This document shows positions 10,256 through 57,450 of a stretch of DNA of 64,000 bases, in pieces. The DNA lies in the NCBI RefSeq assembly GCF_000372525.1, contig NZ_AQUR01000097.1, forward strand, positions 62,001 to 126,000. The letters are read 5' to 3'. How positions within the stretch are numbered: position 1 is the stretch's first letter; each line of letters starts with the position of its first letter. A model generated the notes under the pieces. The model saw only the letters and a list, made by a program, of their open reading frames with translations, did not search any database and had not been told where the DNA came from. The position numbers and the translations under genes were made by a program. Origin of the DNA: Cupriavidus neocaledonicus. GTDB lineage: Bacteria; Pseudomonadota; Gammaproteobacteria; Burkholderiales; Burkholderiaceae.

Positions 10256-10267
10256 GGCGAGGCCGCG

Positions 10268-11893: not shown

Positions 11894-11919
11894 CCCACCC
11901 CTATCCCCGGAGCTTCGTG

Positions 11920-12882: not shown

Positions 12883-12913
12883 TCCAGCCAGCTTCTTCCG
12901 AAGAGCACGATCG

Positions 12914-14287: not shown

Positions 14288-14517
14288 CCGCTGCGCCGCG
14301 GCGCCGCGCATATCCAAATGCAATAAGTTTCCTTGCCTCGCGCGAGCGCCGTCGGCAACCATAGCAGCCACGCCGCAGGAGCGTGCGCGGGCCGGCTGGT
14401 ACCATCGCACGGCCTGGTGCGCCCGTGCGGCGCACTGCTCGGCATGCCCGGCGCCAGGGCAGGCACTGCCCCCGTGCGCCGGTCCGGCAACCAACAGCGA
14501 GAAGAAGAGAGAAGAAG
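14288..14517 (+). promoter_or_regulatory. metY leader region with two hairpins
   Basis: 230 bases between the monooxygenase and metY. Two inverted repeats are visible: a 7-bp stem CGCACGG/CCGTGCG (14406-14412 with 14423-14429) and a 5-bp stem GGGCA/TGCCC (14457-14461 with 14467-14471). A purine-rich GAAGAAGAGAGAAGAAG tract ends at the ATG and is the ribosome site. I looked for SAM-II and SAH riboswitch signatures and did not recognise either, so a leader role is only a possibility. Confidence 0.25.
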
Positions 14518-15792
14518 ATGAGACTCGAAACCCTGGCCGTCCATGGCGGCTACTCGCCAGATCCCACCACGCGCGCGGTGGCCGTGCCTATCTACCAGAC
14601 CGTGGCCTACGCCTTCGACAACGCCCAGCACGGCGCCGACCTGTTCGACCTGAAGGTGGCCGGCAACATCTACAGCCGCATCATGAACCCGACCAACGAC
14701 GTGCTCGAGCAGCGCCTGGCCGCGCTCGAGGGCGGCGTCGGCGCGCTGGCGCTGGCGTCGGGCATGGCGGCGATCACCTATGCGATCCAGACCATTGCCG
14801 AGGCCGGCGACAACATCGTCTCGTCCAGCCAGCTCTACGGCGGCACCTACAACCTGCTGGCGCATACGCTGCCGCAGTCGGGCATCGAGACCCGCTTTGC
14901 CGACGGCCGCAATCCGTCCAGCTTCGGCGACCTGATCGATGCGCGCACCAAGGCCGTGTTCGTCGAGTCGGTGGGCAACCCGCTAGGCAACGTGGTCGAT
15001 ATCGCCGCGATCGCGCGCGTGGCGCACAACCACGGCGTGCCGCTGATCGTCGACAACACGGTGCCGTCGCCCTACCTGTGCCGGCCGTTCGAGCATGGCG
15101 CGGATATCGTCGTGCATTCGCTGACGAAGTACCTGGGCGGCCACGGCAACAGCGTCGGCGGCGCCATCGTCGACAGCGGCAAGTTCCCGTGGGCGCAGCA
15201 CAAGGAGCGCTTCCGCCGCCTGAACGAGCCGGACGTGTCGTACCACGGCGTGGTCTATACCGAAGCGCTGGGACCGGCCGCCTATATCGGCCGCGCGCGC
15301 GTGGTGCCGCTGCGCAATACTGGCGCGGCGCTGTCACCCTTCAACGCCTTCCTGATCCTGCAGGGCATCGAGACGCTGGCGCTGCGGCTGGACCGCATCA
15401 CCGACAACGCGCTGGCAATCGCGCGCCACCTGGAGCAGCACGCCAAGGTGGCATGGGTCAATTTTGCCGGCTTGCCCGACCATGCCGACCACGCCCTGGT
15501 GCAGCAATACCTGGGCGGCCGCGGCCCCGGCATCCTGTCGTTCGGCCTGAAGCAGGGCGGCCGCGAAGGCGGCGCGCGCTTCCTCGATGCGCTGCAGCTG
15601 TTTACGCGGCTGGTCAATATCGGCGATGCCAAGTCGCTGGCCACCCACCCGGCATCGACCACGCACCGCCAGCTCAACGCCGCCGAGCTGCAGGCGGCCG
15701 GTGTCAGCGAAGACATGGTGCGGCTGTCGATCGGCATCGAGCACATCGACGACCTGATCGAGGACCTGGATCGCGCGCTGGCGGCCGCCTGA
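14518..15792 (+). CDS. metY: O-acetylhomoserine sulfhydrylase (aminocarboxypropyltransferase)
   Basis: 424 residues, Cys/Met metabolism PLP enzyme. The Schiff-base lysine is K204 in SLTK, with the phosphate-binding SGMAA near residue 81 and YSRIMNPTN at 52-60, all typical of MetY. The enzyme makes homocysteine from O-acetylhomoserine and sulfide, which fits a region devoted to recovering sulfur from organic compounds. Length matches the family (about 425-440). Strong purine-rich ribosome site. A hairpin repeat follows the stop codon and may terminate the transcript. Confidence 0.92.
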
Positions 15793-25330: not shown

Positions 25331-27016
25331 TCAGCGCGGGGCGTTGGCCTCGCCTTGCCCCTCTCCCGCCAGCACGGCGCAGCGCTGCGCCGCCTGCGCC
25401 AGCGACTCGGCGTAGTTGCCCTCGCCCAGCGCCGCCAGCACGCCGGCGCGCGCCAGCTTTTCCCTGACCCTTGCGTTGGCTTCGGCCAGCACCACCGCGA
25501 CGCCGCGCTTCTGCAGCGTGACGATCACCGCCTCGAGCGTCTGCAGCCCGGTCATGTCCATGAAGGGCACGCGGCCCAGGCGGATCAGCAGCACGCGCGG
25601 CTCGGTATGGGTCTGCACCAGGGCACGCTCGCACGCTTCGACCGCGCCGAAGAAGAACGGACCGTCGATGACATAGACCAGCACGCCCGGCGGCACCGGC
25701 GCCGCCGCGCCGGTGCCGGCATCGCCCAGTTCGCGCTCCACCGCCTCGGCGGCCTGGGGGGCCACCTCCACCGATGCCGACATGCGCCGCAGGAACTGCA
25801 GCATGGCCAGGATCACGCCGATATTGACCGCCACCACTAGGTCGGTCAGCACCGTCAGCGTAAAGGTGATCAGCAGGATCGCGACATCGGCGCGCGGCGC
25901 GCGCCGCACCATGCGCGCGAACTGGCGCATTTCGCTCATGTTGTAGGCCACCACGAACAGGATCGCGGCCAGCGCGGCCAGCGGCACGCTGGCCGCGAGC
26001 GGCGCCAGGAACAGCAGCACCAGCACCAGCGTGAGCGCATGCACCACGCCGGCCAGCGGGCTGTTGCCGCCGTTGCGGATATTGGTGGCGGTGCGCGCGA
26101 TCGCGCCGGTGGCGGCAAACCCGCCGAACAGTGGCGCCAGCACATTGGCGATGCCCTGTCCGACCAGCTCCTGGTTGGAATCATGCCGGGTGCCGGCCAT
26201 GCCGTCGGCCACCACCGCGGACAGCAAGGACTCGATCGCGCCCAGCATGGCGATGGTAAAGGCGGGCCCGGCCAGTTCCAGCACGCGCGCCAGCGTGATG
26301 TCCGGCCACGCCGGCACCGGCAGTCCGCGCGGCAGGCCGCCGAAGGCGGTGCCGATGGTGGCGACGCCATCGAAGCGGAACAGCGCCTGCGCCGCGGTCG
26401 CGGCCACCAGCGCCACCAGCGGCCCCGGCACGCGTCGCAGCCAGCGCAGCCGCGGCGCGCCCACCACCAGCGCCAGGCTGCCCAGCGCCAGCGCGGTGGT
26501 GGCGGGGTGCCATTGCGGCAGCGCCAGCAGCAGGTGCCAGAGCTTTTCGTGGAAATGCGCGCCGGCCACCGGCGGCAGCCCGAAGAAATCGCGCCACTGG
26601 CCGACAAAGATGATCACGCCGATGCCCGCGGTAAAGCCGACGATCACCGGCGCCGGAATGTAGCGGATCACGCTGCCTAGCCGCGTCAGCCCCATCGCCA
26701 CCAGGATCAGGCCCGCCATCAGCGTGGCGATCTGCAGGCCGTCGATGCCGTGGCGCGCCGTCACCGCGGATAGCACCACGATAAAGGCGCCGGTGGGCCC
26801 GGCGATCTGCAGCCGGCTGCCGCCGAACAGCGACACCGCCAGCCCGGCGACGATGGCCGTGTACAGGCCCTGCTCCGGCTTGGCGCCGGAGGCAATCGCG
26901 AAGGCCATCGCCAGCGGCAGCGCCACCACCCCCACGATCACGCCCGACACCAGGTTCGGCAGCCAGTTGCCGCGGCGGAACAATCCGGCCAGCCAAGCTT
27001 CGCGCAGCGCAATCAT
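25331..27016 (-). CDS. SulP-family anion transporter with STAS domain
   Basis: 561 residues. The membrane domain covers about residues 15-410 with the SulP signatures VGVVALPLAMAFAIASGAKP (28-47) and IAGPTGAFIVVLS; about 10-14 helices. A STAS domain follows (about 445-550, containing VYVIDGPFFFGAV and VPFMDMTGLQTLE). SulP proteins carry sulfate, bicarbonate, chloride or dicarboxylates with Na+ or H+; the ligand cannot be read here, though sulfate would suit the region. The last residues (GEGQGEANAPR) are encoded by a CCCCTCTCCCGCC stretch resembling half of the local hairpin repeat. Confidence 0.87.
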   Translation of the reverse strand: MIALREAWLAGLFRRGNWLPNLVSGVIVGVVALPLAMAFAIASGAKPEQGLYTAIVAGLAVSLFGGSRLQIAGPTGAFIVVLSAVTARHGIDGLQIATLMAGLILVAMGLTRLGSVIRYIPAPVIVGFTAGIGVIIFVGQWRDFFGLPPVAGAHFHEKLWHLLLALPQWHPATTALALGSLALVVGAPRLRWLRRVPGPLVALVAATAAQALFRFDGVATIGTAFGGLPRGLPVPAWPDITLARVLELAGPAFTIAMLGAIESLLSAVVADGMAGTRHDSNQELVGQGIANVLAPLFGGFAATGAIARTATNIRNGGNSPLAGVVHALTLVLVLLFLAPLAASVPLAALAAILFVVAYNMSEMRQFARMVRRAPRADVAILLITFTLTVLTDLVVAVNIGVILAMLQFLRRMSASVEVAPQAAEAVERELGDAGTGAAAPVPPGVLVYVIDGPFFFGAVEACERALVQTHTEPRVLLIRLGRVPFMDMTGLQTLEAVIVTLQKRGVAVVLAEANARVREKLARAGVLAALGEGNYAESLAQAAQRCAVLAGEGQGEANAPR

Positions 27017-27240
27017 GCGTCGGTCCCTTCCATCGGTGCGGGGGTGCAGGTGAATCGAATGATAACAGCATGTTAATGCTTGCCCGCGGCACCACCTTGT
27101 TCGCGGCCGCGCTCCGAAGGCCCCTGGTGTCCTGTTCCTTATGCCGCGCAATTCCTATACTGGATGGGCTCGCCCGCCAGTGCGCGGACGCGCCACGCTG
27201 GCGCGGTATCTCGGTATCTCTCTGCAAGCGGAGGCTCATC

Positions 27241-29810: not shown

Positions 29811-29951
29811 GCGTTGCTCCCGTGCCGTGCGCGTGGTGTTTGCCGCCATGGTTGTGTCTGCCTGCGGCCGCGGCGGATGGCGGACGGCAGGTGTCATGAC
29901 CGGATATCGGCGCGCGCCCGTGGGAATTGAGCCGCGCGCGCGCCGCTTGCG

Positions 29952-29987
29952 CGGATTTCATCGTTCCATATCCGGATTGCTTCGTTC
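29952..29987 (+). promoter_or_regulatory. Tandem 15-base direct repeat upstream of the GntR/flavoprotein operon
   Basis: CGGATTTCATCGTTC (29952-29966) and CGGATTGCTTCGTTC (29973-29987), identical at 12 of 15 positions, start-to-start 21 bases, about two helical turns. The second copy matches the sulfur-operon block at 8209-8223 (CGGAATCATTCGTTC) at 12 of 15. It ends 62 bases before the GntR start. Likely a regulator-binding array on one DNA face. Confidence 0.4.
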
Positions 29988-30024
29988 CTTCGGCACGGCA
30001 TGGTCCATATAGTGACTCCCAACT

Positions 30025-30034
30025 TGTCATAACA
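30025..30034 (+). promoter_or_regulatory. Possible GntR autoregulatory operator
   Basis: TGT-CATA-ACA, a small palindrome of the type bound by HutC-group GntR regulators, ends 15 bases before the GntR start codon. Its position would block transcription of the whole downstream operon. Assigned only on form and position. Confidence 0.3.
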
Positions 30035-30049
30035 CGCTATGTCGATCCG

Positions 30050-30910
30050 ATGACCTTCCGGACCAACGCGTTGCCCGCCCACGGCGCCGCGGCAGCGCCG
30101 GCACCCATGCCGACCCCGTTGCCGCTCTACACGCAGATCAAGGACGCCTTGCGCGCCCGCATCCTGGACGGCACCTATCCGCCGCACCACCAGATGCCGT
30201 CGGAGAGTGAACTTGGCGCGAGCTTCGGCGCCAGCCGCATCACCGTGCGCCAGGCGCTGGGCGACCTGCAGAAAGAGGGCCTGATCTTCAAGATCCCCGG
30301 CAAGGGCTCCTTTGTCTCCAGGCCGCGCGCTTTCCAGAACGTGACCTCGCTGCAGGGCTTTGCCGAGGCGATGTCCGGCATGGGGTACGAGATCCTGAAC
30401 CAGGTGCGCAGCCTCAAGCGCGTGCCTGCCAGCGGCCACGTTGCCGCGCAGCTGCGCCTGCGTGAAGGCGATGCGGTGGTGGAGATCCGGCGCGTGCGCC
30501 TGCTCAACCGCGAACCGGTGTCGCTGGAACTGACCTGGGTGCCCGAGGCCGTCGGCCGCCGCCTGCTCAATGCCGACCTCGCCACGCGCGACATCTTCCT
30601 GATCCTGGAAAACGACTGTGGCGTAAAGCTCGGCCATGCCGACCTGAGCGTCGATGCCATCCTCGCCGACGACGAGCTGACCCAGGCGCTGCGCATCCAG
30701 GAAGGCGCGCCGGTACTGCGCATCGAACGCCTGACCCACAACGCGCAGGGCACGCCGATCGACTACGAGTTCCTCTACTTCCGCGGCGACGCGTTTCAGT
30801 ACCGGCTGCGCGCAGACCGGCACAAGGCAGCGCCCGTCACCAACGCCAACCACACAGCAGGCCGCGCCCGGCCCCGCAAACCAGCCAGCAAAGGGAAGCC
30901 TTCCGCATGA
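30050..30910 (+). CDS. GntR-family transcriptional regulator (HutC subfamily, UTRA domain)
   Basis: 286 residues. The winged HTH is at about 25-92: LPLYTQIKDALRARILDGTY, then MPSESELGASFGASRITVRQAL and the wing GKGSF. The UTRA ligand domain runs from about 115 to 265 (VVEIRRVRLLNREPVSLELT, then PVLRIERLTHNAQGTPIDYE). UTRA domains sense small metabolites, which release the repressor. The stop codon overlaps the ATG of the flavoprotein by 4 bases, so regulator and operon are cotranscribed and probably autoregulated. The C-terminal 25 residues are basic and disordered. Confidence 0.9.
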   Translation: MTFRTNALPAHGAAAAPAPMPTPLPLYTQIKDALRARILDGTYPPHHQMPSESELGASFGASRITVRQALGDLQKEGLIFKIPGKGSFVSRPRAFQNVTSLQGFAEAMSGMGYEILNQVRSLKRVPASGHVAAQLRLREGDAVVEIRRVRLLNREPVSLELTWVPEAVGRRLLNADLATRDIFLILENDCGVKLGHADLSVDAILADDELTQALRIQEGAPVLRIERLTHNAQGTPIDYEFLYFRGDAFQYRLRADRHKAAPVTNANHTAGRARPRKPASKGKPSA

Positions 30911-32697
30911 ATACCGTGACTTACGAATACGACATCGTTGTCGTCGGCGGCGGCACTGCCGGCCCGATGGCCGCGATCAAGGCCAAGGAACGCAACCCGG
31001 CGCTGCGCGTGCTGCTGCTCGACAAGGCGCATGTCAAGCGCAGCGGCGCCATCTCGATGGGCATGGACGGCCTCAACAATGCCGTGATCCCCGGCCACGC
31101 CACGCCCGAACAGTACACGCGCGAGATCACCGTGGCCAACGACGGCATCGTCGACCAGTCCACCGTCTATGCCTACGCGCGCCACAGCTTCACTACCATC
31201 GAGCAGCTGGACCGCTGGGGCGTGCGTTTCGAGAAGGACGAGACCGGCGACTATGCCGTGAAGAAGGTCCACCACATGGGCTCATATGTACTGCCGATGC
31301 CCGAAGGACACAACGTCAAGAAGGTGCTGTACCGCCAGCTCAAGCGCGCCCGCGTGGAGATCACCAACCGCATCGTGGCCACGCGCGTGCTGACCGACCC
31401 GTCCGGCGCCGCCAGCGGCGTGATGGGCTTCGACTGCCGCACCGCGGACTTCCACGTGATCCGCGCACGCGCCGTGATCCTGTGCTGCGGCGCGGCCGGC
31501 CGGCTGGGCCTGCCCGCCTCCGGCTACCTGATGGGAACCTACGAAAACCCCACCAATGCCGGCGACGGCTACGCCATGGCTTATCACGCGGGCGCGGCGC
31601 TGGCCAACCTGGAGTGCTTCCAGATCAATCCGCTGATCAAGGACTACAACGGGCCCGCCTGCGCCTACGTGACCGGTCCGCTGGGCGGCTATACCGCCAA
31701 CGGCAAGGGCGAGCGCTTTATCGAATGCGATTACTGGAGCGGCCAGATGATGTGGGAGTTCTACCAGGAACTGCAGGGCGGCAACGGTCCCGTGTTCCTG
31801 AAGCTGGACCACCTGGCCGAAGAGACCATCCAGACCATCGAGACCATCCTGCACACCAACGAGCGCCCCAGCCGCGGCCAGTTCCATGCCGGGCGCGGCA
31901 CCGACTACCGCCGGCAGATGGTGGAGATGCATATCTCCGAGATTGGCTTCTGCAGCGGCCACAGTGCCTCCGGCGTGCATGTGAACGAGCGCGCCGAGAC
32001 CACGGTGCCGGGCCTCTATGCCGCCGGCGACATGGCCGCGGTGCCACACAACTATATGCTGGGCGCGTTCACTTATGGCTGGTTTGCCGGACAGAATGCC
32101 GCCGATTACGTGGCGGGCCGCGAGCTGCCCGAGGCGGATGCGGCGCAGGTCGCGGCGGAACGCGCGCGCGTGTTGGCACCGCTGGCCCGCGCCAGCGGCC
32201 TGCCGCCCGCGCAGGTGGAATACAAGCTGCGGCGCATGGTCAACGACTACCTGCAGCCGCCCAAGGTCACGCGCAAGATGGAAATCGGCCTGCAGCGCTT
32301 CGATGCCATCGCCGAAGACATCGGCCAGATCCGCGCCGCCAACCCGCATGAGCTGATGCGCGCGGTCGAGGTCATGGCCATCCGCGACTGCGCCGAAATG
32401 GCGGCGCGCGCCTCGCTGTTCCGCACCGAGAGCCGATGGGGCCTCTACCACCATCGCGTCGACTATCCGCAGCGCAATGACGCGGACTGGTTCTGCCATA
32501 CACACCTGAGCAAGGACGGCGCCGGACGCATGGTCAGCCACAAGCGCGCGATCGAACCGTACATCGTCCCGGTGGCGGGCGACGACGCCACTGCCTACCA
32601 GCGGCTGCGCGTTGGCCGTGGCCAGGCTGCCCATCCCGGCACCGAACCCGACATCAAACCCCGCGCCGCACTGGCCACCGGCCTCGCTGCCGCCTGA
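30907..32697 (+). CDS. FAD-dependent oxidoreductase, AprA/fumarate reductase-like flavoprotein
   Basis: 596 residues of the FAD_binding_2 superfamily. The dinucleotide motif VVVGGGTAGPMAA has its glycines at 14-16 and 19. HHMGSYVLPMPEGHNVKK, ARAVILCCGAAGRLG and GLYAAGDMAAVPHNYMLGAF are further FAD and substrate landmarks; a C-terminal helical domain (from about 440) is like that of succinate dehydrogenase and AprA. It is followed by a small 2[4Fe-4S] ferredoxin resembling AprB. No haem or membrane anchor gene is present. The reaction is unknown; given the ABC importer behind it, an imported organosulfur or dicarboxylate-like compound may be oxidised or reduced. Confidence 0.8.
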   Translation: MNTVTYEYDIVVVGGGTAGPMAAIKAKERNPALRVLLLDKAHVKRSGAISMGMDGLNNAVIPGHATPEQYTREITVANDGIVDQSTVYAYARHSFTTIEQLDRWGVRFEKDETGDYAVKKVHHMGSYVLPMPEGHNVKKVLYRQLKRARVEITNRIVATRVLTDPSGAASGVMGFDCRTADFHVIRARAVILCCGAAGRLGLPASGYLMGTYENPTNAGDGYAMAYHAGAALANLECFQINPLIKDYNGPACAYVTGPLGGYTANGKGERFIECDYWSGQMMWEFYQELQGGNGPVFLKLDHLAEETIQTIETILHTNERPSRGQFHAGRGTDYRRQMVEMHISEIGFCSGHSASGVHVNERAETTVPGLYAAGDMAAVPHNYMLGAFTYGWFAGQNAADYVAGRELPEADAAQVAAERARVLAPLARASGLPPAQVEYKLRRMVNDYLQPPKVTRKMEIGLQRFDAIAEDIGQIRAANPHELMRAVEVMAIRDCAEMAARASLFRTESRWGLYHHRVDYPQRNDADWFCHTHLSKDGAGRMVSHKRAIEPYIVPVAGDDATAYQRLRVGRGQAAHPGTEPDIKPRAALATGLAAA

Positions 32698-32710
32698 AGG
32701 AAACCTCGCC

Positions 32711-32956
32711 ATGGCCTACACCCCGCATGAAATCGCCCAGCGCACCAGCGCGCCGGTGACCATCGACGAAGACAAGTGCATCGCCGACAAGGGCTGCACC
32801 GTGTGCGTCGATGTCTGCCCGATGGATCTGCTGGCCATCGACCTGGCCAAGGGCAAGGCTTATATGCAGTTCGACGAATGCTGGTACTGCATGCCCTGCG
32901 AAAAGGACTGCCCGACGGGCGCGGTACGGGTCGAGATCCCGTACCTGTTGCGTTGA
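32711..32956 (+). CDS. 2[4Fe-4S] ferredoxin, AprB-like
   Basis: 81 residues. Eight cysteines form two clusters: C23, C29, C32, C36 (CIADKGCTVCVDVCP, with a 5-residue first gap) and C57, C60, C63, C67 (CWYCMPCEKDCP). The CW-x-C second motif resembles the APS reductase beta subunit. It probably passes electrons between the flavoprotein and a cellular carrier. Start at 32711 follows GGAAACC and the stop of the flavoprotein by 13 bases. Confidence 0.85.
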   Translation: MAYTPHEIAQRTSAPVTIDEDKCIADKGCTVCVDVCPMDLLAIDLAKGKAYMQFDECWYCMPCEKDCPTGAVRVEIPYLLR

Positions 32957-32996
32957 TTGCCAAGCTTCATGACCACAGCCCCACCGAGATAGCCCC

Positions 32997-34418
32997 ATGA
33001 AAGCCTTTTCCAGCATCCCGCTGCTGCTGGCGCTGGGCGCCGCCAGCCTGGCCGGCGCTGCCCGCGCCGAAACCATCCGCGTCGCCATCGGTACGCAGGA
33101 CACCACCATCAACTGCGCCACCGGCGGCCTGCTGATCCGCGAACTGAAGCTGCTCGACAAATACCTGCCGCGCACCGGCAAGTACAAGGACGTCAGCTAC
33201 GACGTGCAATGGAAGAACTTCACCTCCGGCCCGCCGCTGACCAACGAGATGGTGGCCGACAAGCTCGATCTCGGCGTGATGGCGGATTTTCCCGGCTCGC
33301 TCAACGCCGCGGCGTTCCAGAAGGCCGGCAAGAAGAGCCTGTTTATCGCGCCGCTGTCAGGCAACGCGATCGGCACCGGCAACGGCATCGTGGTGCCCGC
33401 CGATTCCCCGGTCCAGTCGCTGGCGGAGCTCAAGGGCAAGACCATCTCGGTGCCGTTCGGCTCGACCGCGCACGGCATGCTGCTGCGCGCGATAAAGCGC
33501 CAGGGCTGGGACCCGGACAAGGACGTGACGCTGGTGTCGCAGTCGCCCGAGGTCGGCGGCTCGGCACTGCAGGCGCACAAGGTGGATGGCCATGCCAACT
33601 TCGTGCCGTTCCCCGAGTTGTTCGCGTTCCGCGGCTTTGCGCGCAAGATCTATGACGGCTCCCAGGCCGAGGCGCCCACCTTCCACGGCGCGCTGGTGAG
33701 CGCGGAGTATGCGCACAAGTATCCGGAGATCGTGGTGGCCTATCTGCGCGCCGCCATCGAGGCCGACCGCCTGATGGCGGCGGAGCCCGAGAAATACAGC
33801 GAACTGATTGCCAGGGTGACCGGCATCGACGCCGAGGTGGACTACCTGTTCCATGGCCCGCTCGGCCTGCAGAACCGCGACTACACCTGGAAGCCGGAGT
33901 ACCGGCAGGCGCTGCAGACCTCGATCGAAACGCTGAAGCTGCTCAAGCGTACCGATGCCGACCTGAGCGCCGACGCCGTGATCGACGACCGCTACATCCG
34001 CGAAGCGTTCCGGCTTGAAGGCCTGGACTATGAGGCGCGCCTGAAGTCCTACGACAAGCAGCCGCTCGCGGCCCGGGACGCGGACAGCGGCAAGCCCATC
34101 GCCGAGCCCAGGCTGGCCGCGCAGCTGTGGCTGCGGGGCGAGCCCACGGTGCGCGCCTATGCCTCGCCGGCGGCAGCGTTCGCCGCGCTCAGGCAGGCGG
34201 CGAAGGCGGGCAAGCCGGCGCGCGTGGTGTATGTGCATGACCGCAATACCGGCCTGAAGCTGCTGGCCAACAAGGCGTGGTATGTGCAGGACGGCAAGGG
34301 ACAGGTCAGCGCCTTCCTGCTCAAGGGCTCCGCCGACGGCTGGGCCAGGGCCAATGGCGGCAAGGTGCGCGACTTCGCCGCAGTCAGCGGCGCGGCCGTC
34401 GCCGTGGCCAGCAACTGA
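32997..34418 (+). CDS. ABC substrate-binding protein fused to a C-terminal NosL-like domain
   Basis: 473 residues, about 130 longer than usual SsuA-type proteins. Signal peptide 1-24 (cleavage after ARA). Residues 25-350 are an NMT1/SsuA-like binding domain (LDLGVMADFPGSLNAAAFQK, then VQSLAELKGKTISVPFGSTA). Residues about 375-465 resemble the end of NosL: AQLWLRGEPTVRAYAS, ARVVYVHDRNTG, KAWYVQDG and ARANGGKVRDF follow NosL order. The Cys/Met copper site of NosL is not seen. Such a fusion is unfamiliar to me; the extra domain may sense or hold a ligand or metal. Followed 16 bases later by the permease gene. Confidence 0.8.
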   Translation: MKAFSSIPLLLALGAASLAGAARAETIRVAIGTQDTTINCATGGLLIRELKLLDKYLPRTGKYKDVSYDVQWKNFTSGPPLTNEMVADKLDLGVMADFPGSLNAAAFQKAGKKSLFIAPLSGNAIGTGNGIVVPADSPVQSLAELKGKTISVPFGSTAHGMLLRAIKRQGWDPDKDVTLVSQSPEVGGSALQAHKVDGHANFVPFPELFAFRGFARKIYDGSQAEAPTFHGALVSAEYAHKYPEIVVAYLRAAIEADRLMAAEPEKYSELIARVTGIDAEVDYLFHGPLGLQNRDYTWKPEYRQALQTSIETLKLLKRTDADLSADAVIDDRYIREAFRLEGLDYEARLKSYDKQPLAARDADSGKPIAEPRLAAQLWLRGEPTVRAYASPAAAFAALRQAAKAGKPARVVYVHDRNTGLKLLANKAWYVQDGKGQVSAFLLKGSADGWARANGGKVRDFAAVSGAAVAVASN

Positions 34419-34434
34419 TACCCGGAGCGCGACG

Positions 34435-35280
34435 ATGAGCGCAATCACGCTTGAAGCCGGGCCGCCCCCGGTGGCGCCGGCGATGGCCGGCGCGGCACGC
34501 GCCCGGCTGGCGCGCTGGCTGGTGCGCCTGGCCGCGCTGGCGAGCTGCATCGTGCTGTGGCAGCTGGCTTCGTCGCAGCGGGCCCACCTTGGCCTCGTTA
34601 CCTTCGCCAACGTGCCCGCGCCCAGCGAGGTGGTGCCGGCGGCCTGGCAGCTGTTGCAGTCGCCCAAGCTGGTGCTGCACCTGGGCAACAGCCTCTACCG
34701 CGTGTTTGCCGGCTTCGGCGCGGCGGCCGCGGCAGGCATCGTGCTCGGCATGGCCATCGGCCGCTCGCGCTGGCTGGAAGACCTGCTGCTACCGCCGCTT
34801 GAGGTGCTTCGCCCGATTCCCGGCGTGGCGTGGATTCCGCTGGCAATCCTGATGTTCCCTTCTTCGGAACTGAGCATGATCTTCATCACCTTTATCGGGG
34901 CGCTGTTCCCGATCCTGCTCAATACCATCCACGGCGTGGAACGCACCGATCCGCGGCTGATCGCCACGGCGCGCAGCCTGGGTGCGCGCCGCTGGACCGT
35001 CTTCCCCGAAGTGCTGTTGCCTGCCGCCCTGCCCAGCATCGTCACGGGCCTGGCGATCGGCATGGGCACGTCCTGGTTCTGCCTGGTCACTGCCGAGATG
35101 ATCGCGGGACAGTACGGCATCGGCTACTACACGTGGGAAGCCTACAACCTGCAGAACTATGCGGATATCGTGGTCGGCATGCTGCTCATCGGCGCCTTCG
35201 GCATGGGCAGCAGCGCGCTGATCAAGCGCACCGGCGCGTGGCTGATGCCATGGACCCGCCTGCAGCAGGAGCGCGCATGA
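34435..35280 (+). CDS. ABC transporter permease, sulfonate/nitrate type
   Basis: 281 residues with about six helices; the first is near LVRLAALASCIVLWQLASS. The ATPase-docking loop is LIATARSLGARRWTVFPEVL and GMGTSWFCLVTAEMI follows. The ATG has CCCGGAG upstream. The stop overlaps the ATPase start by 4 bases (ATGA). Confidence 0.87.
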   Translation: MSAITLEAGPPPVAPAMAGAARARLARWLVRLAALASCIVLWQLASSQRAHLGLVTFANVPAPSEVVPAAWQLLQSPKLVLHLGNSLYRVFAGFGAAAAAGIVLGMAIGRSRWLEDLLLPPLEVLRPIPGVAWIPLAILMFPSSELSMIFITFIGALFPILLNTIHGVERTDPRLIATARSLGARRWTVFPEVLLPAALPSIVTGLAIGMGTSWFCLVTAEMIAGQYGIGYYTWEAYNLQNYADIVVGMLLIGAFGMGSSALIKRTGAWLMPWTRLQQERA

Positions 35281-36083
35281 GCAGCCCGCCGATCCGCGCG
35301 GGCCAACTGCAGGTGCGCGGCCTGGATGTGGCGCTGGGCCAGGGCGAGACCGGCTTTACCGCCGTCCAACAGCTTTCCATCGACATTCCCGCCGGGCAGT
35401 TCGTCTGCATCCTGGGCCCATCGGGCTGCGGCAAGTCCACGCTGCTGGGCGCCATCGCCGGCCACTTGCGGCCGGCGGCGGGCGAGATCCTGCTCGACGG
35501 GGCGCTGGTGCGAGGCCCCGCGCCGGAGCGCGGGCTGGTATTCCAGCAGCACTCGCTGTTCCCATGGAAGCGCGTGCTCGACAACGTCGGCTTCGGCCTG
35601 AAGATGCGGGGCATGCCCGCCGCCGAGCGCAGACGCGAGGCGCAGGCCCTGCTGGATCTGGTCGGCCTGGGCAGCTTCGCGCAGCGCTATCCCGCCCAGC
35701 TCTCCGGCGGCATGCAGCAGCGCGTGGAGATCGCGCGCGTGCTGATCAACCGGCCGCGCGTGCTGCTGATGGACGAGCCCTTCGGCGCGCTCGACGCGCA
35801 GACCCGCGCCCATATGCAGGCGCTGCTGCTCGACGTCTGGACGCAGATGCGCACCACCGTGGTCTTTGTCACCCATGACATCGACGAGGCGCTGTTCCTG
35901 GCCGACCGCGTGCTGGTGATGTCTCAGCGGCCCGGACGCATCCTGGAGGATATCGCCGTCCCCTTCGAGCGGCCGCGCCGCGCCGAACGGATGACCGATG
36001 ACGATTTCATCCGGCTCAAGCGCCGCTGCCGCGGCCTGCTGCATCACCACGCCGACGCCGGCGCACTCGCGTCTGGCGCCTGA
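35277..36083 (+). CDS. ABC transporter ATP-binding protein, sulfonate/nitrate type
   Basis: 268 residues. Walker A GPSGCGKST 47-55, Q-loop FQQHSLFPW near 89-97, signature LSGGM 142-146, Walker B LLMDEP 163-168, H-loop VTHDIDEA. Translationally coupled to the permease by an ATGA overlap. It drives the importer whose binding protein carries the NosL-like domain. Confidence 0.88.
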   Translation: MSSPPIRAGQLQVRGLDVALGQGETGFTAVQQLSIDIPAGQFVCILGPSGCGKSTLLGAIAGHLRPAAGEILLDGALVRGPAPERGLVFQQHSLFPWKRVLDNVGFGLKMRGMPAAERRREAQALLDLVGLGSFAQRYPAQLSGGMQQRVEIARVLINRPRVLLMDEPFGALDAQTRAHMQALLLDVWTQMRTTVVFVTHDIDEALFLADRVLVMSQRPGRILEDIAVPFERPRRAERMTDDDFIRLKRRCRGLLHHHADAGALASGA

Positions 36084-36109
36084 CTCCCATATCGACCCGG
36101 CTGAAATCC

Positions 36110-37108
36110 ATGTCACACGCTTGCGTCTTGCCTGACCGTTCCCTGTCGGAACCCGATCCCGCCATCGCCGTACTGGCGCTGCGCCTCTCCGACCCCGACC
36201 CCGCCGTGCGCCGCGTGGCGGTGCTGCAACTGGCCGACCTGGAAGACGAAGACGGCGTGCCGCTGCTGCTGCAACGGCTGCAATCCGACCCGGCGCAGGC
36301 CGTGCGCGCCGAGGCCGCGCGCACGCTGGCCAGCTGGGAGCGGCATGCGGTGGTGCAGGCCCTGGCCACGACCCTGGCCGATCCGGTCCGCGAGGTCGCG
36401 CAAGCCGCTGCGCAAGCGCTGTCAGAACTGAAAGACCCGGCTTCCGGCGCCGCCCTGCTGCCCTGGGTCACGCACGCCGACCCCTTTGTGCGGGCCTGCG
36501 CCTGGCGCGGCCTGCGCGAACTGCGCCATGCGGCCGGGTTCGATGCGGCCATGGCGGCCCTGTCCGACACCGCCGCGCCGGTGCGGCGCGAAGCCGTGGC
36601 CGTGCTGGGCTGGCTCAGGCGCAGCGAAGCCCTGCCTGCGCTGGCCCGGGCCGCCACCGGCGACACCGACGCCGAAGTGCGGCGCGCCGCCGCCGGCGCG
36701 CTCGGCCTGGCCGCCGATCCGGCAGCGTGCGAGGCCTTGCTCGCGGCCTTGCGCGACGACGCCTGGCAGGTACGCGAAGAAGCCGCGCAGACGCTGGGAA
36801 AACTGAAGTTCGCCGAAGCCGTGCAGCCTCTGATCGGCGCACTGGAAGACCCCTACTGGCAGGTGCGCCTGCAGGCCGCCAGGGCGCTGGGCAAGCTGCG
36901 CGACCGCGCCGCGCTGCAGCCGCTGGCGCTGCAGCTCGGCCACGCCATCAGCAACCTGCGCAAGGAGGCCGCGCTGTCGCTCGGGAGCTTGCAGGATCCC
37001 GCAGCGCTGGCAGCCCTGAGCGCAGCGGCGCACGATGCCGATCCGGAGGTACGCAAGGCCGTGCGCATTGCGCTGGCGCAGATCGGTACACCACTTAATG
37101 CGGCGTGA
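36110..37108 (+). CDS. HEAT-repeat (PBS-lyase type) protein
   Basis: 332 residues made almost wholly of about ten 30-residue helical repeats; typical units read VREVAQAAAQALSELKDP, VREEAAQTLGKLKFAEAVQP and VRLQAARALGKLRDRAALQP. No signal peptide, so a cytosolic scaffold or a partner-binding protein. PBS-lyase HEAT proteins near Fe-S flavoproteins may help assembly or electron-partner docking, but that is a guess. It starts 26 bases after the ATPase gene and overlaps the DUF971 gene, so it belongs to the operon. Confidence 0.82.
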   Translation: MSHACVLPDRSLSEPDPAIAVLALRLSDPDPAVRRVAVLQLADLEDEDGVPLLLQRLQSDPAQAVRAEAARTLASWERHAVVQALATTLADPVREVAQAAAQALSELKDPASGAALLPWVTHADPFVRACAWRGLRELRHAAGFDAAMAALSDTAAPVRREAVAVLGWLRRSEALPALARAATGDTDAEVRRAAAGALGLAADPAACEALLAALRDDAWQVREEAAQTLGKLKFAEAVQPLIGALEDPYWQVRLQAARALGKLRDRAALQPLALQLGHAISNLRKEAALSLGSLQDPAALAALSAAAHDADPEVRKAVRIALAQIGTPLNAA

Positions 37109-37389
37109 GCATGCTGGTCCCGTCGCGGCTTGAACTGGCGCCTGCCGAAGGGGTGTTGCGCATCGACTGGCCGGATGGACGGCGCCAGTCACTCGATCAC
37201 GCACGGCTGCGCCAGGCATGCCGTTGCGCCGCGTGCCGGAGCGGGCCGGCCGGGGCGGCGGTCGGGCAGGCGCTCGACCAAGCGGTCCGCATCGTTGCGG
37301 TGCAGGACATGGGCTACGGCATCCAGCTGATCTTCAATGACGGACATGACCGCGGCATCTATCCATGGCGCTATCTCGAAACGCTTTAG
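37105..37389 (+). CDS. DUF971 (GBBH-like N-terminal) domain protein
   Basis: 94 residues. LRIDWPDGRRQSLDHARLRQ, then C39, C41 and C44 (CRCAAC), and the end FNDGHDRGIYPWRYLETL are the DUF971 pattern, a domain that binds zinc or Fe-S and is found alone near Fe-S assembly proteins or at the N-terminus of gamma-butyrobetaine hydroxylase. The GTG start overlaps the HEAT gene stop (GTGA); an ATG two codons later is the alternative. Last gene of the GntR-led operon. Confidence 0.82.
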   Translation: MSMLVPSRLELAPAEGVLRIDWPDGRRQSLDHARLRQACRCAACRSGPAGAAVGQALDQAVRIVAVQDMGYGIQLIFNDGHDRGIYPWRYLETL

Positions 37390-37434
37390 GTTGATGGGCG
37401 TGCAAGCGGCATGCAAGCGGCCGCTACCCGCTCG

Positions 37435-37695
37435 CTACCCGCCCGCCAGCGCCTGCAGGATATGCACTTCGTCGGTCTCCTGCAGCGGCGCATCCAGCCG
37501 CATCAGCTGGGTGCGGTTGACGAACACGCGGATATACGGCCGCAGCTTGCCTTGCTCGTCGACAATGCGAAAGCGCATGCCGGGAAACTGGCGGTCGAGG
37601 TCGTCAAGCAGCTCACCGATGCTGGCGCCATGGGCTTCGACATATTCGCGCTGTCCGGTGTAGGAGAAGAGCGGCGTCGCGATGCGGATCTGCAT
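37435..37695 (-). CDS. ThiS/MoaD-like sulfur-carrier-fold protein
   Basis: 86 residues, beta-grasp fold of the ThiS/MoaD family: IRIATPLFSYTGQREYVEA, LDDLDRQFPGMRFRIVD, then IRVFVNRTQLMRLD, and the diagnostic C-terminal Gly-Gly (LAGG) that is thiocarboxylated in true carriers. GGAG 6 bases upstream decides the ATG at 37695 over an upstream in-frame ATG. It follows a BNR-repeat gene by 27 bases. Together with the adjoining operon this hints at sulfur transfer, but no E1-like activating enzyme is present here. Confidence 0.82.
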   Translation of the reverse strand: MQIRIATPLFSYTGQREYVEAHGASIGELLDDLDRQFPGMRFRIVDEQGKLRPYIRVFVNRTQLMRLDAPLQETDEVHILQALAGG

Positions 37696-37722
37696 GGGTA
37701 TCTCCGGATCGGCCAATCACCA

Positions 37723-38880
37723 TCAGGCGGGGCGCGCCACGCTCACCGCGTAGATTTGCGGCAGGTTGCGCGCGATGCAGCGCCAGCTCTCGCCCTCGTC
37801 GGCGCTGGCCCAGAGTTCGCCGCCGGTGGTGCCGAAGTACACCCCCACCGGTTCGTGGCCGTCGGCTGCCATGGCCTGGCGCTTGACCGTGAACCAGCCC
37901 TGTTCGGACGGCAGGCCGCGGTCCAGGCGCTGCCACGTCTCGCCGGCATCGCGCGTGACATAGGCGGCCGGATGGCCGCCCGGGCTGACGCGCGGCCAGA
38001 CATCGCTGCCGTCCATCGGGAACACCCACACCGTGCGCGGGTCGCGGCGGTGGGCAACGATCGGAAAGCCGATATCCCCTACGTCGGCCGGCATGGCTGC
38101 GCCAATGCGCTGCCACACCCCTTCGCGGCGGTCCATGCGGTAGATGCCGCAGTGGTTCTGCTGGTAGAGGATGTCGGGATCGGCGGGATGCTGCAGGACG
38201 CAGTGCGGGTCCTGCCCGTATTCCGGATTGGGATCAGGCAGGAAGTTGGCAAGGCTGCCGCGGTTCAGCGGCTTCCAGTCGGCGCCGGCGTCGGTGCTCT
38301 CGAACACGCCGCCGCTGGACATGCCGATATACAGGTGGCGCGCATCGCGCGGATCGACCAGCACGGAATGCAGCTTGGGGCCGTCGGGGGTGCCGTCCTG
38401 CTCGCCGCCGGTCCAGGCGCGCCACATCGGGTGGTCGTTGAAGCCCGACACCGGCTCCCAGGTCGCGCCATGGTCGGCGCTGCGGAACAGGCCCTGTGGC
38501 GAGGTGCCGGCGTACCAGGTGCCGGGCTCGCTGGCATGGCCGGGAGTGAGCCAGAACACATGGTCGACGACGCGGCCGGTCTCGCCCTCCGGCACCTTGG
38601 CGAAGGCGGGCGGGCGCGCCGCCTCGGTCCAGTTGCGGCCGGCGTCGGTGGAGCGGAACACGGTCGGGCCGAGGTGGCCGGTGCGCGCCGCCATCAGCAG
38701 GCGCGACGGCTCGCGCGGGTCCTGCACGATATGGTGGATGGTATGGCCGAGGAAGGTCGGGCCCTCGATCTGCCAGTCGCGGCGCGCGGCGTCGCTGGTC
38801 AGGAACCAGGCGCCCTTGGTGGTGGCCACCAGCAGGCGGAGCGGGCCGGTATCCGTTTCGGGCATGGGGGAAGTCGTCAT
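37723..38880 (-). CDS. BNR/sialidase-like beta-propeller protein
   Basis: 385 residues without a signal peptide. Several Asp-box units (S-x-D-x-G-x-x-W) are visible: STDAGRNW, SADHGATW, STDAGADW, TRDAGETW and SADEGESW, giving a WD40/YVTN/BNR-like propeller. Catalytic residues of sialidases are not evident, so it is more likely a binding or structural propeller. It is cotranscribed with the ThiS/MoaD-like gene and convergent to the flavoprotein operon. Confidence 0.8.
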   Translation of the reverse strand: MTTSPMPETDTGPLRLLVATTKGAWFLTSDAARRDWQIEGPTFLGHTIHHIVQDPREPSRLLMAARTGHLGPTVFRSTDAGRNWTEAARPPAFAKVPEGETGRVVDHVFWLTPGHASEPGTWYAGTSPQGLFRSADHGATWEPVSGFNDHPMWRAWTGGEQDGTPDGPKLHSVLVDPRDARHLYIGMSSGGVFESTDAGADWKPLNRGSLANFLPDPNPEYGQDPHCVLQHPADPDILYQQNHCGIYRMDRREGVWQRIGAAMPADVGDIGFPIVAHRRDPRTVWVFPMDGSDVWPRVSPGGHPAAYVTRDAGETWQRLDRGLPSEQGWFTVKRQAMAADGHEPVGVYFGTTGGELWASADEGESWRCIARNLPQIYAVSVARPA

Positions 38881-51243: not shown

Positions 51244-54200
51244 ATGAGTCATTTCCTGGATCGACTGAAGTTCATGTCGCGCGTCAAGTCAACCTATGCG
51301 GACGGCCACGGCGAGGTGGTGAACGAAGACCGCAAGTGGGAAGACGGCTACCGCAGCCGCTGGCAGCACGACAAGATCGTGCGCTCCACCCACGGCGTGA
51401 ACTGCACCGGCTCCTGCTCCTGGAAGGTCTACGTCAAGAACGGCCTGATCACCTGGGAAACGCAGCAGACCGACTACCCGCGCACGCGCCCGGACCTGCC
51501 CAACCACGAGCCCCGCGGCTGTCCGCGCGGCGCGTCGTACAGCTGGTACGTCTACTCCGCGCAGCGCGTCAAGTACCCGATGATCCGCGGCCGCCTGATG
51601 GAGATGTGGCGCGAGGCCCGCAAGACCATGGATCCCATCGCCGCCTGGGAATCGATCAGCCAGGATCCGGAGAAGGCGGCGCGCTACAAGAGCGTGCGCG
51701 GCCAGGGCGGCTTCGTCCGTGCCGACTGGAACACCGCCACCGAGATGATCGCCGCGGCCAACGCCTTCACCGTGAAGACATTCGGCCCCGACCGCGTCAT
51801 CGGCTTCTCGCCGATCCCGGCGATGTCGATGGTGTCGTACGCCGCGGGCGCGCGCTACCTGAGCCTGCTCGGCGGCGCCTGCCTGTCGTTCTATGACTGG
51901 TACTGCGACCTGCCGCCGGCCAGCCCGCAGATCTGGGGCGAGCAGACCGACGTGCCCGAATCCGCCGACTGGTACAACTCCACCTACCTGATGGTGTGGG
52001 GCTCGAACGTGCCACAGACGCGCACGCCCGACGCCCACTTCTACACCGAGGTGCGCTACAAGGGCACCAAGACCGTCGCGGTCTCGTCCGACTTCGGCGA
52101 GATGGTCAAGTTCGGCGATATCTGGCTGGCGCCGAAGCAAGGCACCGATGCCGCGCTGGCAATGGCGATGGGCCACGTGGTGCTCAAGGAATTCCACGCC
52201 AGCGGCAAGTCCGCCTACTTCCGCGACTACGTGAAGCAGTACACCGACATGCCGATGCTGGTGCTGCTGCGCGAGCACGGCGGCACGCTGGTGCCCGACC
52301 ACTTCCTGCGTGCCTCGCACCTGGCCAACAACCTCGGCGAAGCCAACCATCCGGAATGGAAGACGCTGCTGGTCGACGACGCCACCGGCGAGATCGTCGC
52401 GCCCAACGGCTCGATCGGCTTCCGCTGGGGCGAGGCTGCGCACAACGACGGGGCAAAGGTGGGCCGCTGGAACCTGGAGATGAAGGACGGCGGCAGCGGC
52501 CGCGCGGTCGAGCCGCGCTTGTCGCTGCTCGGCCACGGCGACGAAGTGGTCGAGGTCGGCTTCCCCTATTTCGGCGGCGAACACGACGAACTGCTGCGCC
52601 GCCGCGTGCCGGCGCGCCGCCTCACGCTGGCCGACGGCAGCACCGCGCTGGTGGCGACCGTGTACGACCTCCAGATGGCCAACTACGGTGTCGACCAGGG
52701 CCTGGGCGGCCCCAACGTGGCGTCGTCGTATGAGGACGACGTGCCCTACACCCCTGCCTGGCAGGAGAAGCACACCTCCGTGCCGGCGCGCCTGGTGATA
52801 CAGGTGGCGCGCGAGTTCGCCGACAACGCCGACCGCACGCAGGGCAAGAGCATGGTGATCGTCGGTGCCGCGCTGAACCACTGGTACCACAACGACATGA
52901 TCTACCGCGGCATCATCAACCTGCTGATGATGTGCGGCTGCATCGGCAAGAGCGGCGGCGGCTGGGCCCACTATGTCGGCCAGGAAAAGCTGCGTCCGCA
53001 GTTCGGCTGGGCCCCGCTGGCATTCGGCCTGGACTGGTCGCGCCCGCCACGCCAGATGAACGGCACCTCGTTCTTCTACAACCACACCAGCCAGTGGCGC
53101 CACGAGAAGCTGGCCGTCGACGAGATCCTGTCGCCGACCGCCGACCGCAGGCGCTACGACGGCCTGTCGCTGCTCGACCTGAACGCGAAGTCCGAGCGCA
53201 TGGGCTGGCTGCCTTCGGCGCCGCAGCTCGGCACCAATCCGCTCGACGTGGTCGATGCGGCCGAGCAGGCCGGCAAGGATCCGGTGGCCTATACCGTCGA
53301 GCAACTGAAGTCGGGCGCGCTGCAATTCGCCTGCGACGATCCCGACAACCCGGCCAACTTCCCGCGCAACATGTTCGTGTGGCGCTCCAATATCCTGGGC
53401 AGCTCGGGCAAGGGCCATGAGTATTTCCTGAAGTACCTGCTCGGCACGCAGAACGCCGTGTTCGGCGACGAGAACGATGCGATCAGGCCGAGCGAAGTCA
53501 ACGTACGCCCGGCCGCCGAAGGCAAGCTCGACCTGCTGACCGTGCTGGACTTCCGCATGAGCACCACCTGCCTGTACGGCGACATCGTGCTGCCGACCGC
53601 CACCTGGTACGAGAAGGACGACCTCAACACGTCCGACATGCACCCCTTTATCCACCCGCTGTCCGAAGCCGTGCAGCCGCTGTGGGAAAGCAAGACCGAC
53701 TGGGAAATCTACAAGGCCATCGCGAAGAAGTTCAGCGAGATCGCCGGTCCCTACCTGGGCACGCGCAAGGACCTGGTCTGCACGCCCCTGCTGCACGACA
53801 CCCCCGGCGAACTGGGCCAGCCGTTCGAGCCCAGGGACTGGAAGGCCGGCGAGTGCGACCTGATCCCCGGCAAGACCGCGCCGTCGATGACGGTGGTCGA
53901 GCGCAACTACGCCGATATCTACAAGAAATTCACCTCGATCGGCCCGCTGCTCGACAAGCTCGGCAACGGCGGCAAGGGCATCAACTGGAACACCCAGCAC
54001 GAGGTGAACGAAATCGGCGAGCTCAGCCACACGGTGACGGAGCCCGGCGTGAGCCAGGGCCGCCCGAAGCTGGAGACCGCGATCGACGCCGCCGAGATGA
54101 TCCTGACCTTCGCCCCGGAAACCAACGGCCACGTCGCCGTCAAGGCATGGGAAGCGCTGTCGAAGATCACCGGCCGCGACCACACCCACCTGGCCGAAGG

Positions 54201-56528: not shown

Positions 56529-56555
56529 GCGCCCACGAACGAACCGGAGAACAAC

Positions 56556-57227
56556 ATGCCCCTCTATCCCATCCTCAGCGCGCTGCTCGGCTATCCCGAG
56601 CAGGAACTGCTCGACGCGCTGCCCGAGATCGATGCCGCACTGGCCGAATGGCCCCAGGCGCGCCGCCTGCTGGCGCCAGTGACCGGCATGCTGTGCGGCG
56701 AGACGCTGATCGGGCTGCAGGAAAACTATGTCGCCACCTTCGACCGCAACCCGTCGCACTCGCTGCACCTGTTCGAGCATGTGCACGGCGAAAGCCGCGA
56801 CCGCGGCCAGGCCATGGTCGACCTGATCGACGAATACCGGCGCGCGGGCTTCGAGCCCGTGGCGTCCGAACTGCCCGACTATGTGCCGCTGTTCCTGGAG
56901 TTCCTCGGCGCGCTTGCGGCGGACGGCAGCGAGGCACGCGCCGAACGGCTGCTGGGCGAAGCCATCCACGTGCTGGCCGCGATCGGCGACCGGCTCGCGC
57001 GCAACCAGAGCCCATACGCCAGCGTGTTCGCGGTGCTGCGCACGCTCACCGACGTGCAGCCGCAACCGCAGCAGGAGCCGCCGGTGCGGGACATGGACGA
57101 GGCGCTGGAAACCTTCGGTCCGGGCGCCGATGGCGTGGAGCCGCTGCTGGCGCCGCCGACCGGGCCGCAGGCGGTGAAGTTCTATCCGCGCGGCACGGCG
57201 CCGGCGCCTGTGCCGGTGCCTTGCTGA
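56556..57227 (+). CDS. narJ: Nitrate reductase molybdenum cofactor assembly chaperone
   Basis: 223 residues, all-helical TorD/NarJ fold. ILSALLGYPEQELLDALPEI at the start, ATFDRNPSHSLHLFEHVHGESRDRG (in parts) with the conserved DR..SLHLFEH motif. NarJ holds NarG during Mo-cofactor insertion and does not stay in the enzyme. GGAG precedes the ATG. The C-terminus is Pro-rich. A MITE-like element separates it from narI. Confidence 0.93.
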   Translation: MPLYPILSALLGYPEQELLDALPEIDAALAEWPQARRLLAPVTGMLCGETLIGLQENYVATFDRNPSHSLHLFEHVHGESRDRGQAMVDLIDEYRRAGFEPVASELPDYVPLFLEFLGALAADGSEARAERLLGEAIHVLAAIGDRLARNQSPYASVFAVLRTLTDVQPQPQQEPPVRDMDEALETFGPGADGVEPLLAPPTGPQAVKFYPRGTAPAPVPVPC

Positions 57228-57243
57228 AATGTTGGCCGACCTC

Positions 57244-57367: not shown

Positions 57368-57450
57368 TTGGCAGATCAAGACAGCAAAGCAAGCTCCACC
57401 GACGCAATCCAACACCCAGCCTTGCCGTCCACTTACCGAGCTAACACACC

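Follow-up and report, generated by a model that had tools for sequence, protein, structure and literature searches.

The flavin enzymes closest to the system described here are the adenosine 5′-phosphosulfate (APS) reductase AprBA of Archaeoglobus fulgidus (2fja/1jnr) and the 3′-phosphoadenosine 5′-phosphosulfate (PAPS) reductase MtPAPSR of Methanothermococcus thermolithotrophicus (8a8o), both made of a flavin adenine dinucleotide (FAD) subunit and a small Fe-S subunit. In addition, the described sulfonate scavengers Ssu and Tau pair their importers with the oxygenases SsuD and TauD, according to the accessible part of PMC11022551, and actinobacteria carry flavoprotein-HEAT fusions (PRK13800). 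In this study, we analyzed a stretch of 64,000 nucleotides (hereafter the window) from the 6.77 Mb genome of Cupriavidus neocaledonicus, in which a GntR/UTRA regulator gene, an FAD protein gene, a ferredoxin gene, the three genes of an ATP-binding cassette (ABC) importer, a HEAT-repeat gene and a DUF971 gene form a single operon (30050-37389). This self-contained cassette of eight genes has relatives in soil bacteria, plant bacteria and cyanobacteria. Judged by sequence comparison, it is real, conserved and apparently undescribed, and its architecture is secure. We tentatively propose, with somewhat less than an even chance of being right, that it encodes a ligand-inducible three-part flavin/Fe-S enzyme, AprBA-like, that would act on another substrate, an SO3-bearing compound, and probably release sulfite. 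An earlier note on this DNA had named no known system with exactly this gene set, and we found no description of the cassette in the literature searched, in which subscription journals were mostly outside coverage. The accessible parts of PMC5023235, PMC11022551 and PMC4505118 deal with other subjects, and no tested function was found in the literature for the PRK08275 family, to which the FAD protein belongs, or for the PRK13800 fusions.

Families were assigned by Pfam and NCBIfam profile searches, and the features of the cassette are as follows.

30050-30910, forward strand: GntR-family regulator with a UTRA ligand domain (Pfam GntR 1.2e-19, UTRA 1.9e-39)
30907-32697, forward strand: FAD subunit of the PRK08275 family (NF006131; 1144 bits, cut-off 587), sister clade of AprA by tree and residue table
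32711-32956, forward strand: 2[4Fe-4S] ferredoxin subunit with the AprB-like CWxC tryptophan (Fer4_7 1.6e-10, alignment to AprB 3gyx_B)
32997-34418, forward strand: ABC substrate-binding protein whose SsuA/TauA-type domain (about residues 24-351) is followed by a NosL-like domain at the C-terminus (NMT1_2 4.5e-9, SsuA family)
34435-35280, forward strand: ABC permease (BPD_transp_1 3.1e-24)
35277-36083, forward strand: ABC ATPase (ABC_tran 5.1e-34)
36110-37108, forward strand: HEAT-repeat subunit, homologous to the C-terminal half of the FAD-HEAT fusions (PRK13800) (HEAT_2 1e-51, NF010374 102 bits)
37105-37389, forward strand: small DUF971 (PF06155) protein with a GTG start (PF06155 1e-22)
30023-30036, no strand assigned: operator-like palindrome CTTGTCATAACACG, one mismatch to CTTGTYATRACAAG, predicted from site conservation as a probable GntR site
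29946-37433, forward strand: extent of the presence/absence cassette, from empty sites in seven congeneric genomes

The genes are tightly spaced. Overlaps of 4 bp join GntR to FAD, permease to ATPase and HEAT to DUF971, and the gaps are 13 bp (FAD-ferredoxin), 40 bp (ferredoxin-binding protein), 16 bp (binding protein-permease) and 26 bp (ATPase-HEAT). The earlier note had given these positions, families and close spacing, and every gene was confirmed in its place.

The closest solved structures of the FAD protein by sequence are MtPAPSR 8a8o (3.4e-58) and AprA 2fja (4.1e-43). An AlphaFold model of this protein was poor, with a mean predicted local distance difference test (pLDDT) score of 59, and was left out of the fold searches. 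The phylogenetic tree comprised 53 proteins, namely 22 members of the FAD family including that of the window, 19 AprA, MtPAPSR, five SdhA, one FrdA-like protein and five NadB; it was rooted at the midpoint, with some long branches flagged. In this tree, the FAD family formed one clade (99/98) that was sister to AprA plus MtPAPSR (100/99), and both together were split from SdhA/NadB at 100/100. Regarding the reference labels, all 12 tested AprA (of the 19) passed the aprA model, all five NadB passed nadB, one SdhA passed its model, and the FrdA-like row passed no cut-off. Furthermore, the aprA model TIGR02061 scored the FAD protein at 176 bits against a cut-off of 641.75. The comparison with AprA, SdhA, FrdA and NadB that the earlier note had in view thus placed the flavoprotein outside the characterised clades compared.

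The active-site residues tell a similar story. His352 and Asn57 are common to the FAD family, AprA and MtPAPSR, whereas three other positions set the family apart: position 128 is Val in 22/22 members but Gln in 19/19 AprA (alpha145, an APS contact) and Ser in MtPAPSR, position 212 is Tyr in 22/22 but Trp (at the FAD site) in 19/19 AprA and in MtPAPSR, and position 243 is Leu in 22/22 but Arg in 19/19 AprA and in MtPAPSR. In A. fulgidus numbering, we take the position-243 Arg to be alpha265 and the active-site His to be alpha398. In addition, none of the 110 FAD homologues carries RGEGG or NRLG, which we take to be the Arg motifs of the SdhA/FrdA/NadB dicarboxylate site. According to the accessible part of PMC10322725, APS reductases conserve Gln alpha145, and Lys120/Arg121/Ser122 are PAPS traits. 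This PAPS set is unmatched in the window, which has Ser126/Tyr127/Val128; position 126 varies in the family, and Tyr and Val are found in 22/22. Because these marker residues and motifs are missing, the FAD protein is, on present sequence evidence, AprA-like in descent and partner but fits neither the APS/PAPS reductases nor the dicarboxylate enzymes; tree, aprA score, residues and the 0/110 motif count together rule out membership in APS/PAPS reductase, SdhA/FrdA or NadB. Two further residues, Cys252 and Cys349, are present in 22/22 members of the family, each within a conserved motif, and are not Cys in AprA/MtPAPSR. Cys349 lies three residues before His352, and position 349 is also Cys in 3/5 NadB. 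A role of these two cysteines in thiol or persulfide chemistry is possible.

The partners of the FAD protein also resemble those of AprBA in part. The ferredoxin keeps the eight Cys and the CWxC tryptophan; CW.C..C...CP is found in 110/110 ferredoxins and aligns there with AprB 3gyx_B, and the first motif CX5CX2CX3CP, whose spacing differs from that of AprB, is found in 105/110. However, it has only 81 amino acids, compared with 150 (A. fulgidus) and 166 in two AprB and 104 in the MtPAPSR beta subunit. Over positions 633-896 of PRK13800 (NF010374), the HEAT protein scores 102 bits. In both actinobacterial homologues seen (L091 and L115, Tsukamurella and Nonomuraea), a single protein joins FAD and HEAT. 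That of Nonomuraea passes PRK13800 along the entire model with 1586 bits, and in Tsukamurella the two domains form one chain beside importer and ferredoxin genes, in the order GntR-ferredoxin-binding protein-permease-ATPase-FAD::HEAT, which differs from that of the cassette. Taken together, FAD, ferredoxin and HEAT proteins may well form a complex. For DUF971, an Mrp/NBP35 ATPase gene was present in 3/3 cyanobacterial clusters viewed; this hints at Fe-S loading, and DUF971 might be an Fe-S maturation helper. Thus, compared with AprBA, the cassette shares the branch of the FAD superfamily, the small 2[4Fe-4S] partner and the His and Asn, but differs in the replaced Arg, Trp and Gln, in two clade-specific Cys and in the extra HEAT subunit, importer and GntR control. 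Likewise, MtPAPSR differs in its PAPS set and Arg, and it groups with AprA outside the cassette clade. These results support the earlier view that one GntR operon encodes a redox pair resembling AprA/AprB together with a HEAT partner.

To examine conservation, we used named relatives that are the best 80 of 591 confirmed ones; they are close kin, about 80-96% identical, and the one closest to the FAD gene (96%) comes from Cupriavidus alkaliphilus. In these 80 loci, FAD and ferredoxin were present in 80, GntR and HEAT in 78 each, DUF971 in 64, the binding protein in 43, and the permease and the ATPase in 42 each. The order GntR-FAD-ferredoxin-(importer)-HEAT-DUF971 on the same strand was found in 64/80 loci, 32 with the importer and 32 without it. 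Since 64/80 relatives keep the same order and strand, the shared order is not due to chance. DUF971 was missing in 16/80 loci, four of which are contig ends: eight importer-bearing and four importer-less loci had no DUF971 match (one of each ended by the contig), two had the importer and neither a GntR nor a DUF971 match, and two (L078 and L080) were on contigs ending upstream of HEAT. The contigs of L025 and L056 end inside HEAT, so that all four of these contigs end inside the operon. The earlier expectation that the genes are conserved together and in order therefore held in 64 of the 80 relatives, and 14 more are nearly complete. The invariant core, as far as sequence comparison goes, is FAD, ferredoxin and HEAT. 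The FAD family was present in 15/299 sampled Pseudomonadota. FAD-family clusters were also found in plasmid-collection records of Nostoc, Pseudanabaena, Leptolyngbya, Tsukamurella, Nonomuraea, Acinetobacter, rhizobia, Methylocystis, Methylobacterium and Acidithiobacillus.

The cassette seems to have its own regulation. The palindrome CTTGTYATRACAAG was found before GntR in 70/83 loci (with at most two mismatches), and exactly between GntR and FAD in 11 more; there was none in two loci, and this 81/83 was counted in the loci that had also served to derive the palindrome. Meanwhile, TTGT-N4-ACAA occurred in 48/78 upstream regions, compared with 0.4 expected from shuffles. In 28 whole genomes, exact CTTGTYATRACAAG gave 21 matches in 20 genomes, all inside the operon (checked by hand against contig ranges), and the reversed control gave 0. 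The eight genomes without the exact palindrome include that of the window, whose site has one mismatch. A wider GntR regulon was rejected, with no exact palindrome elsewhere in the 28 genomes, where mismatched sites were not sought. Thus, the cassette would carry its own switch: the regulon would be one operon, and GntR probably binds the palindrome as a putative operator. Beside a cyanobacterial cluster (L111, 5676-7676, reverse strand), there is a LysR regulator whose C-terminal part gives a weak NMT1-like match; it may be a ligand sensor in one piece.

The best sequence matches of the binding protein (473 amino acids) are SsuA and TauA, and its NMT1-like fold is closest to SsuA/TauA in the fold list. 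The SsuA subfamily model gave it 120 bits, under the cut-off of 163.5, and the best NCBIfam match of the ATPase was the taurine ATPase model with 252 bits, under the cut-off of 357. When mapped by hand, the sulfonate-contact residues Gln36, Gly68, Gly86 and Ser141 of Xanthomonas citri SsuA correspond to Gln, Gly, Ala and Thr in the binding protein, that is, two identical residues, one main-chain contact and one Ser/Thr swap. The earlier assignment of a sulfonate-type ABC importer is in agreement with these results. Compared with SsuABC/TauABC, however, the operon has no SsuD, SsuE or TauD, the binding protein has the added NosL-like domain, and the importer is optional. On the FAD tree, the importer label changed 13 times, at least six of them on well-supported branches (L080 left out; support by the SH-like approximate likelihood ratio test, SH-aLRT, only, with 42/81 inner branches weak). 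The importer was thus gained or lost repeatedly. Furthermore, in 35/36 genomes with the core but no linked binding protein (L080 not among the 36), there was no binding-protein match at E <= 1e-30. The earlier statement that the redox pair is bound to one importer is thus too strong. As for the NosL-like part (PF05573, cut-off 24 bits), scores were 21.6 in the window, 28.1 in Methylocystis, 24.1 in Pseudanabaena and 19.6 in Acinetobacter. There was no match in the binding proteins of Rhizobium and Tsukamurella, nor for this part in the fold searches, which barely covered it.

Two genes lie convergently next to the operon, and the earlier note had mentioned them with the cluster.

37435-37716, reverse strand: ThiS (Pfam/NCBIfam)
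37723-38880, reverse strand: BNR (Pfam/NCBIfam)

The ThiS/MoaD-like protein has a SAMP1/MoaD_arch match under the cut-off and is paired with the BNR propeller. Among 60 genomes of the genus, the FAD gene was found in 14 and a close BNR homologue (E <= 1e-190) in 28; 11 had both, and 17 had BNR without FAD. Seven of these 17 were sampled, and in 7/7 ThiS-BNR directly followed a CheV gene; homology to the window ended at 29931-29945 and restarted at 37433-37436. Nine of the 13 other cluster-bearing congeners were also sampled. Six of them had the cluster between CheV and ThiS-BNR, one had CheV alongside with ThiS-BNR not in the stretch, and two had neither. In addition, ThiS/BNR was near the cluster in 0/80 named loci (flanks up to 10 kb). 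Because the empty sites close up and ThiS/BNR is near none of the 80 loci, we take the system to be the cassette 29946-37433. ThiS and BNR are ruled out as members and form a separate neighbouring unit, independent of the cassette. Some congeners show signs of decay. For example, L231 has no permease found and only an ATPase fragment but keeps FAD, ferredoxin, HEAT and DUF971, L233 has about 2.4 kb between the binding protein and a shortened permease match, L232 has no GntR match, and the FAD frames of G372 and G356 each have one stop.

We infer both the substrate, plausibly an organosulfur compound, and the direction of the reaction as follows. GntR would bind the palindrome and let go when its ligand is present, and the importer would take up a small SO3-bearing anion. 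Electrons would then pass from the ferredoxin to FAD; in Methylobacterium, where FdxA and ferredoxin-NADP reductase genes adjoin the cluster, these are perhaps the source. The reduced FAD would attack the SO3 sulfur, and sulfite would be released and then assimilated or exported. Meanwhile, the HEAT subunit would take over the part of the AprB tail and clamp the complex, and DUF971 (or Mrp in cyanobacteria) would help to load the Fe-S clusters. A more specific form of this proposal is possible but unlikely: the family could be a third lineage of the AprA branch that gave up nucleotide-activated sulfate and now reductively splits sulfite from a small imported S-sulfo or sulfonate compound, driven by ferredoxin and independent of oxygen, by means of the two clade-specific cysteines and the HEAT clamp. 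The self-contained cassette with its ligand switch would have spread it among aerobic bacteria of soil, plant-associated bacteria and photosynthetic bacteria.

Besides the kinship to AprA and the SO3-type binding protein, some neighbouring genes speak for a sulfur-oxyanion role. In 15 annotated stretches viewed for genes adjoining the unit, TauE/SafE genes were beside it in three, with YeiH/sulfate-exporter-type genes in two of these, and both types adjoin two cyanobacterial copies; organosulfur-type monooxygenases were beside the unit in 2/15. Neighbour scans with a crude open reading frame (ORF) caller covered the nearest genes only, 91 of 275 for importer-less and 87 of 284 for importer-bearing cores. 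NMT1-type proteins were 7/91 and luciferase-like proteins 4/91 near the former, and luciferase-like proteins 3/87 near the latter, although these numbers are statistically weak; among the 25 families listed for 94 control proteins there was neither type, and families with a single member could fall outside that list. Ten neighbours named by NCBIfam comprised six SsuA/TauA-type binding proteins, one such permease, two sugar ABC proteins and one unmatched protein, and SsuA/TauA-like proteins were near six importer-less cores.

Several observations weigh against the proposal of an SO3-bearing substrate. There was no TauE/SafE gene beside the unit in 12 of the 15 annotated stretches, and the TSUP gene of Acinetobacter is about 6 kb off. 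The neighbour genes differ between genomes without a dominant theme, and the two upstream ABC genes tested in Ralstonia (L034) are of the sugar type. Nitrate, bicarbonate, pyrimidine, pyrroloquinoline quinone (PQQ) and other NMT1-type binders rank close behind the sulfonate ones in the fold list, and Thr157 of the binding protein is Ala in the two distant homologues aligned, one cyanobacterial and one actinobacterial. With Arg replaced by Leu243 and Trp by Tyr212, the AprA mechanism may not carry over. Finally, Met+Cys content is 4.9% in FAD, 3.9% in the permease, 4.1% in the ATPase and 5.4% in DUF971 (window ORF median 3.0), and low in the binding protein (1.06%) and HEAT (1.21%). This unevenness speaks against an operon that simply answers sulfur starvation; use switched by a ligand, combined with export of sulfite in some hosts, would fit better than scavenging under starvation. 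The window also holds a second sulfonate-type cluster of seven ORFs (8152-15792), with an NMT1 binding protein, a TauD-family dioxygenase and a luciferase-like monooxygenase (families tested for three of the seven), whose Met+Cys of 0.3-1.9% is a typical sulfur-starvation signature.

The variable neighbours, the lost Arg and Trp, the other binders in the fold list and the enzyme and permease that are not sulfur-poor all speak for another explanation, in which an NMT1-type carrier imports a sulfur-free anion or small organic acid for a dehydrogenase or reductase that is kin to AprA by descent only. We consider this possible but unlikely. The best sequence matches of the binding protein are SsuA and TauA, most of the sulfonate-contact positions are retained, several lineages have sulfite-exporter-type or organosulfur genes next to the unit, and RGEGG and NRLG are missing in 110/110.

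Second, the reaction could run in the oxidative direction, as it does for AprBA in sulfur oxidisers: a reduced or partly oxidised sulfur compound such as a sulfinate, a thiol or sulfite would be oxidised at FAD, and the ferredoxin would carry the electrons away. In nature, AprBA is active in both directions, the hosts are mostly aerobes, and Cys349, so near His352, would with Cys252 suit a thiol-type substrate. Nevertheless, the FdxA and ferredoxin-NADP reductase of Methylobacterium suggest reduction driven by NADPH, and nothing annotated as QmoABC or AprM was found in the 15 annotated stretches, although a 1153-amino-acid FAD-dependent oxidoreductase adjoins the Acidithiobacillus cluster. This explanation appears improbable to us.

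Third, the NosL-like domain, DUF971/Mrp and the low-potential redox pair could deliver a sulfur or metal species to another enzyme, as a maturation system for a cofactor or metal (Fe-S or copper). The NosL-like domain of the binding protein, DUF971 (64/80 loci) and the Mrp/NBP35 ATPase of the cyanobacterial clusters speak for it. However, no recurring client enzyme lies beside the unit, the NosL match of the window is under the Pfam cut-off, the unit has a private GntR and a one-operon palindrome, and the FAD family is found in only 15/299 sampled Pseudomonadota. We regard this explanation as more improbable still.

Last, that the cassette provides sulfate assimilation with another (P)APS reductase is hardly credible: although APS and PAPS reductases are its closest kin among solved structures, and MtPAPSR is an AprBA-type enzyme able to serve assimilation (accessible part of PMC10322725), Gln145 is Val in 22/22, the PAPS set is missing, the aprA score of 176 bits is far from the cut-off of 642, an SO3-type importer would have no evident use, and all 30 core genomes searched have at least two proteins of PF01507, a family that covers both CysH and CysD. 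Because 30/30 core genomes have PF01507 proteins, sulfate assimilation is probably independent of the cassette, and a replacement for CysH is ruled out with the same proviso on CysD; the PF01507 proteins of its hosts are a further difference from AprBA. Elsewhere in the window, there are a SulP-type sulfate permease with a STAS domain (25331-27151, reverse strand) and denitrification genes (51244-61949), namely the alpha and beta subunits of respiratory nitrate reductase and a cytochrome d1 protein.

In public annotation, the FAD protein is labelled "fumarate reductase/succinate dehydrogenase flavoprotein". If our proposal of a flavin/Fe-S enzyme for an SO3-bearing substrate is true, there would be a reductive AprBA-like sulfur route in Burkholderia, Pseudomonas, rhizobia, Acinetobacter and cyanobacteria, which is now hidden by such annotation. 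In addition, the FAD clade bears on the origin of APS reductase. Furthermore, with a palindrome confined to one operon and with empty sites available in nature, the system lends itself easily to testing.

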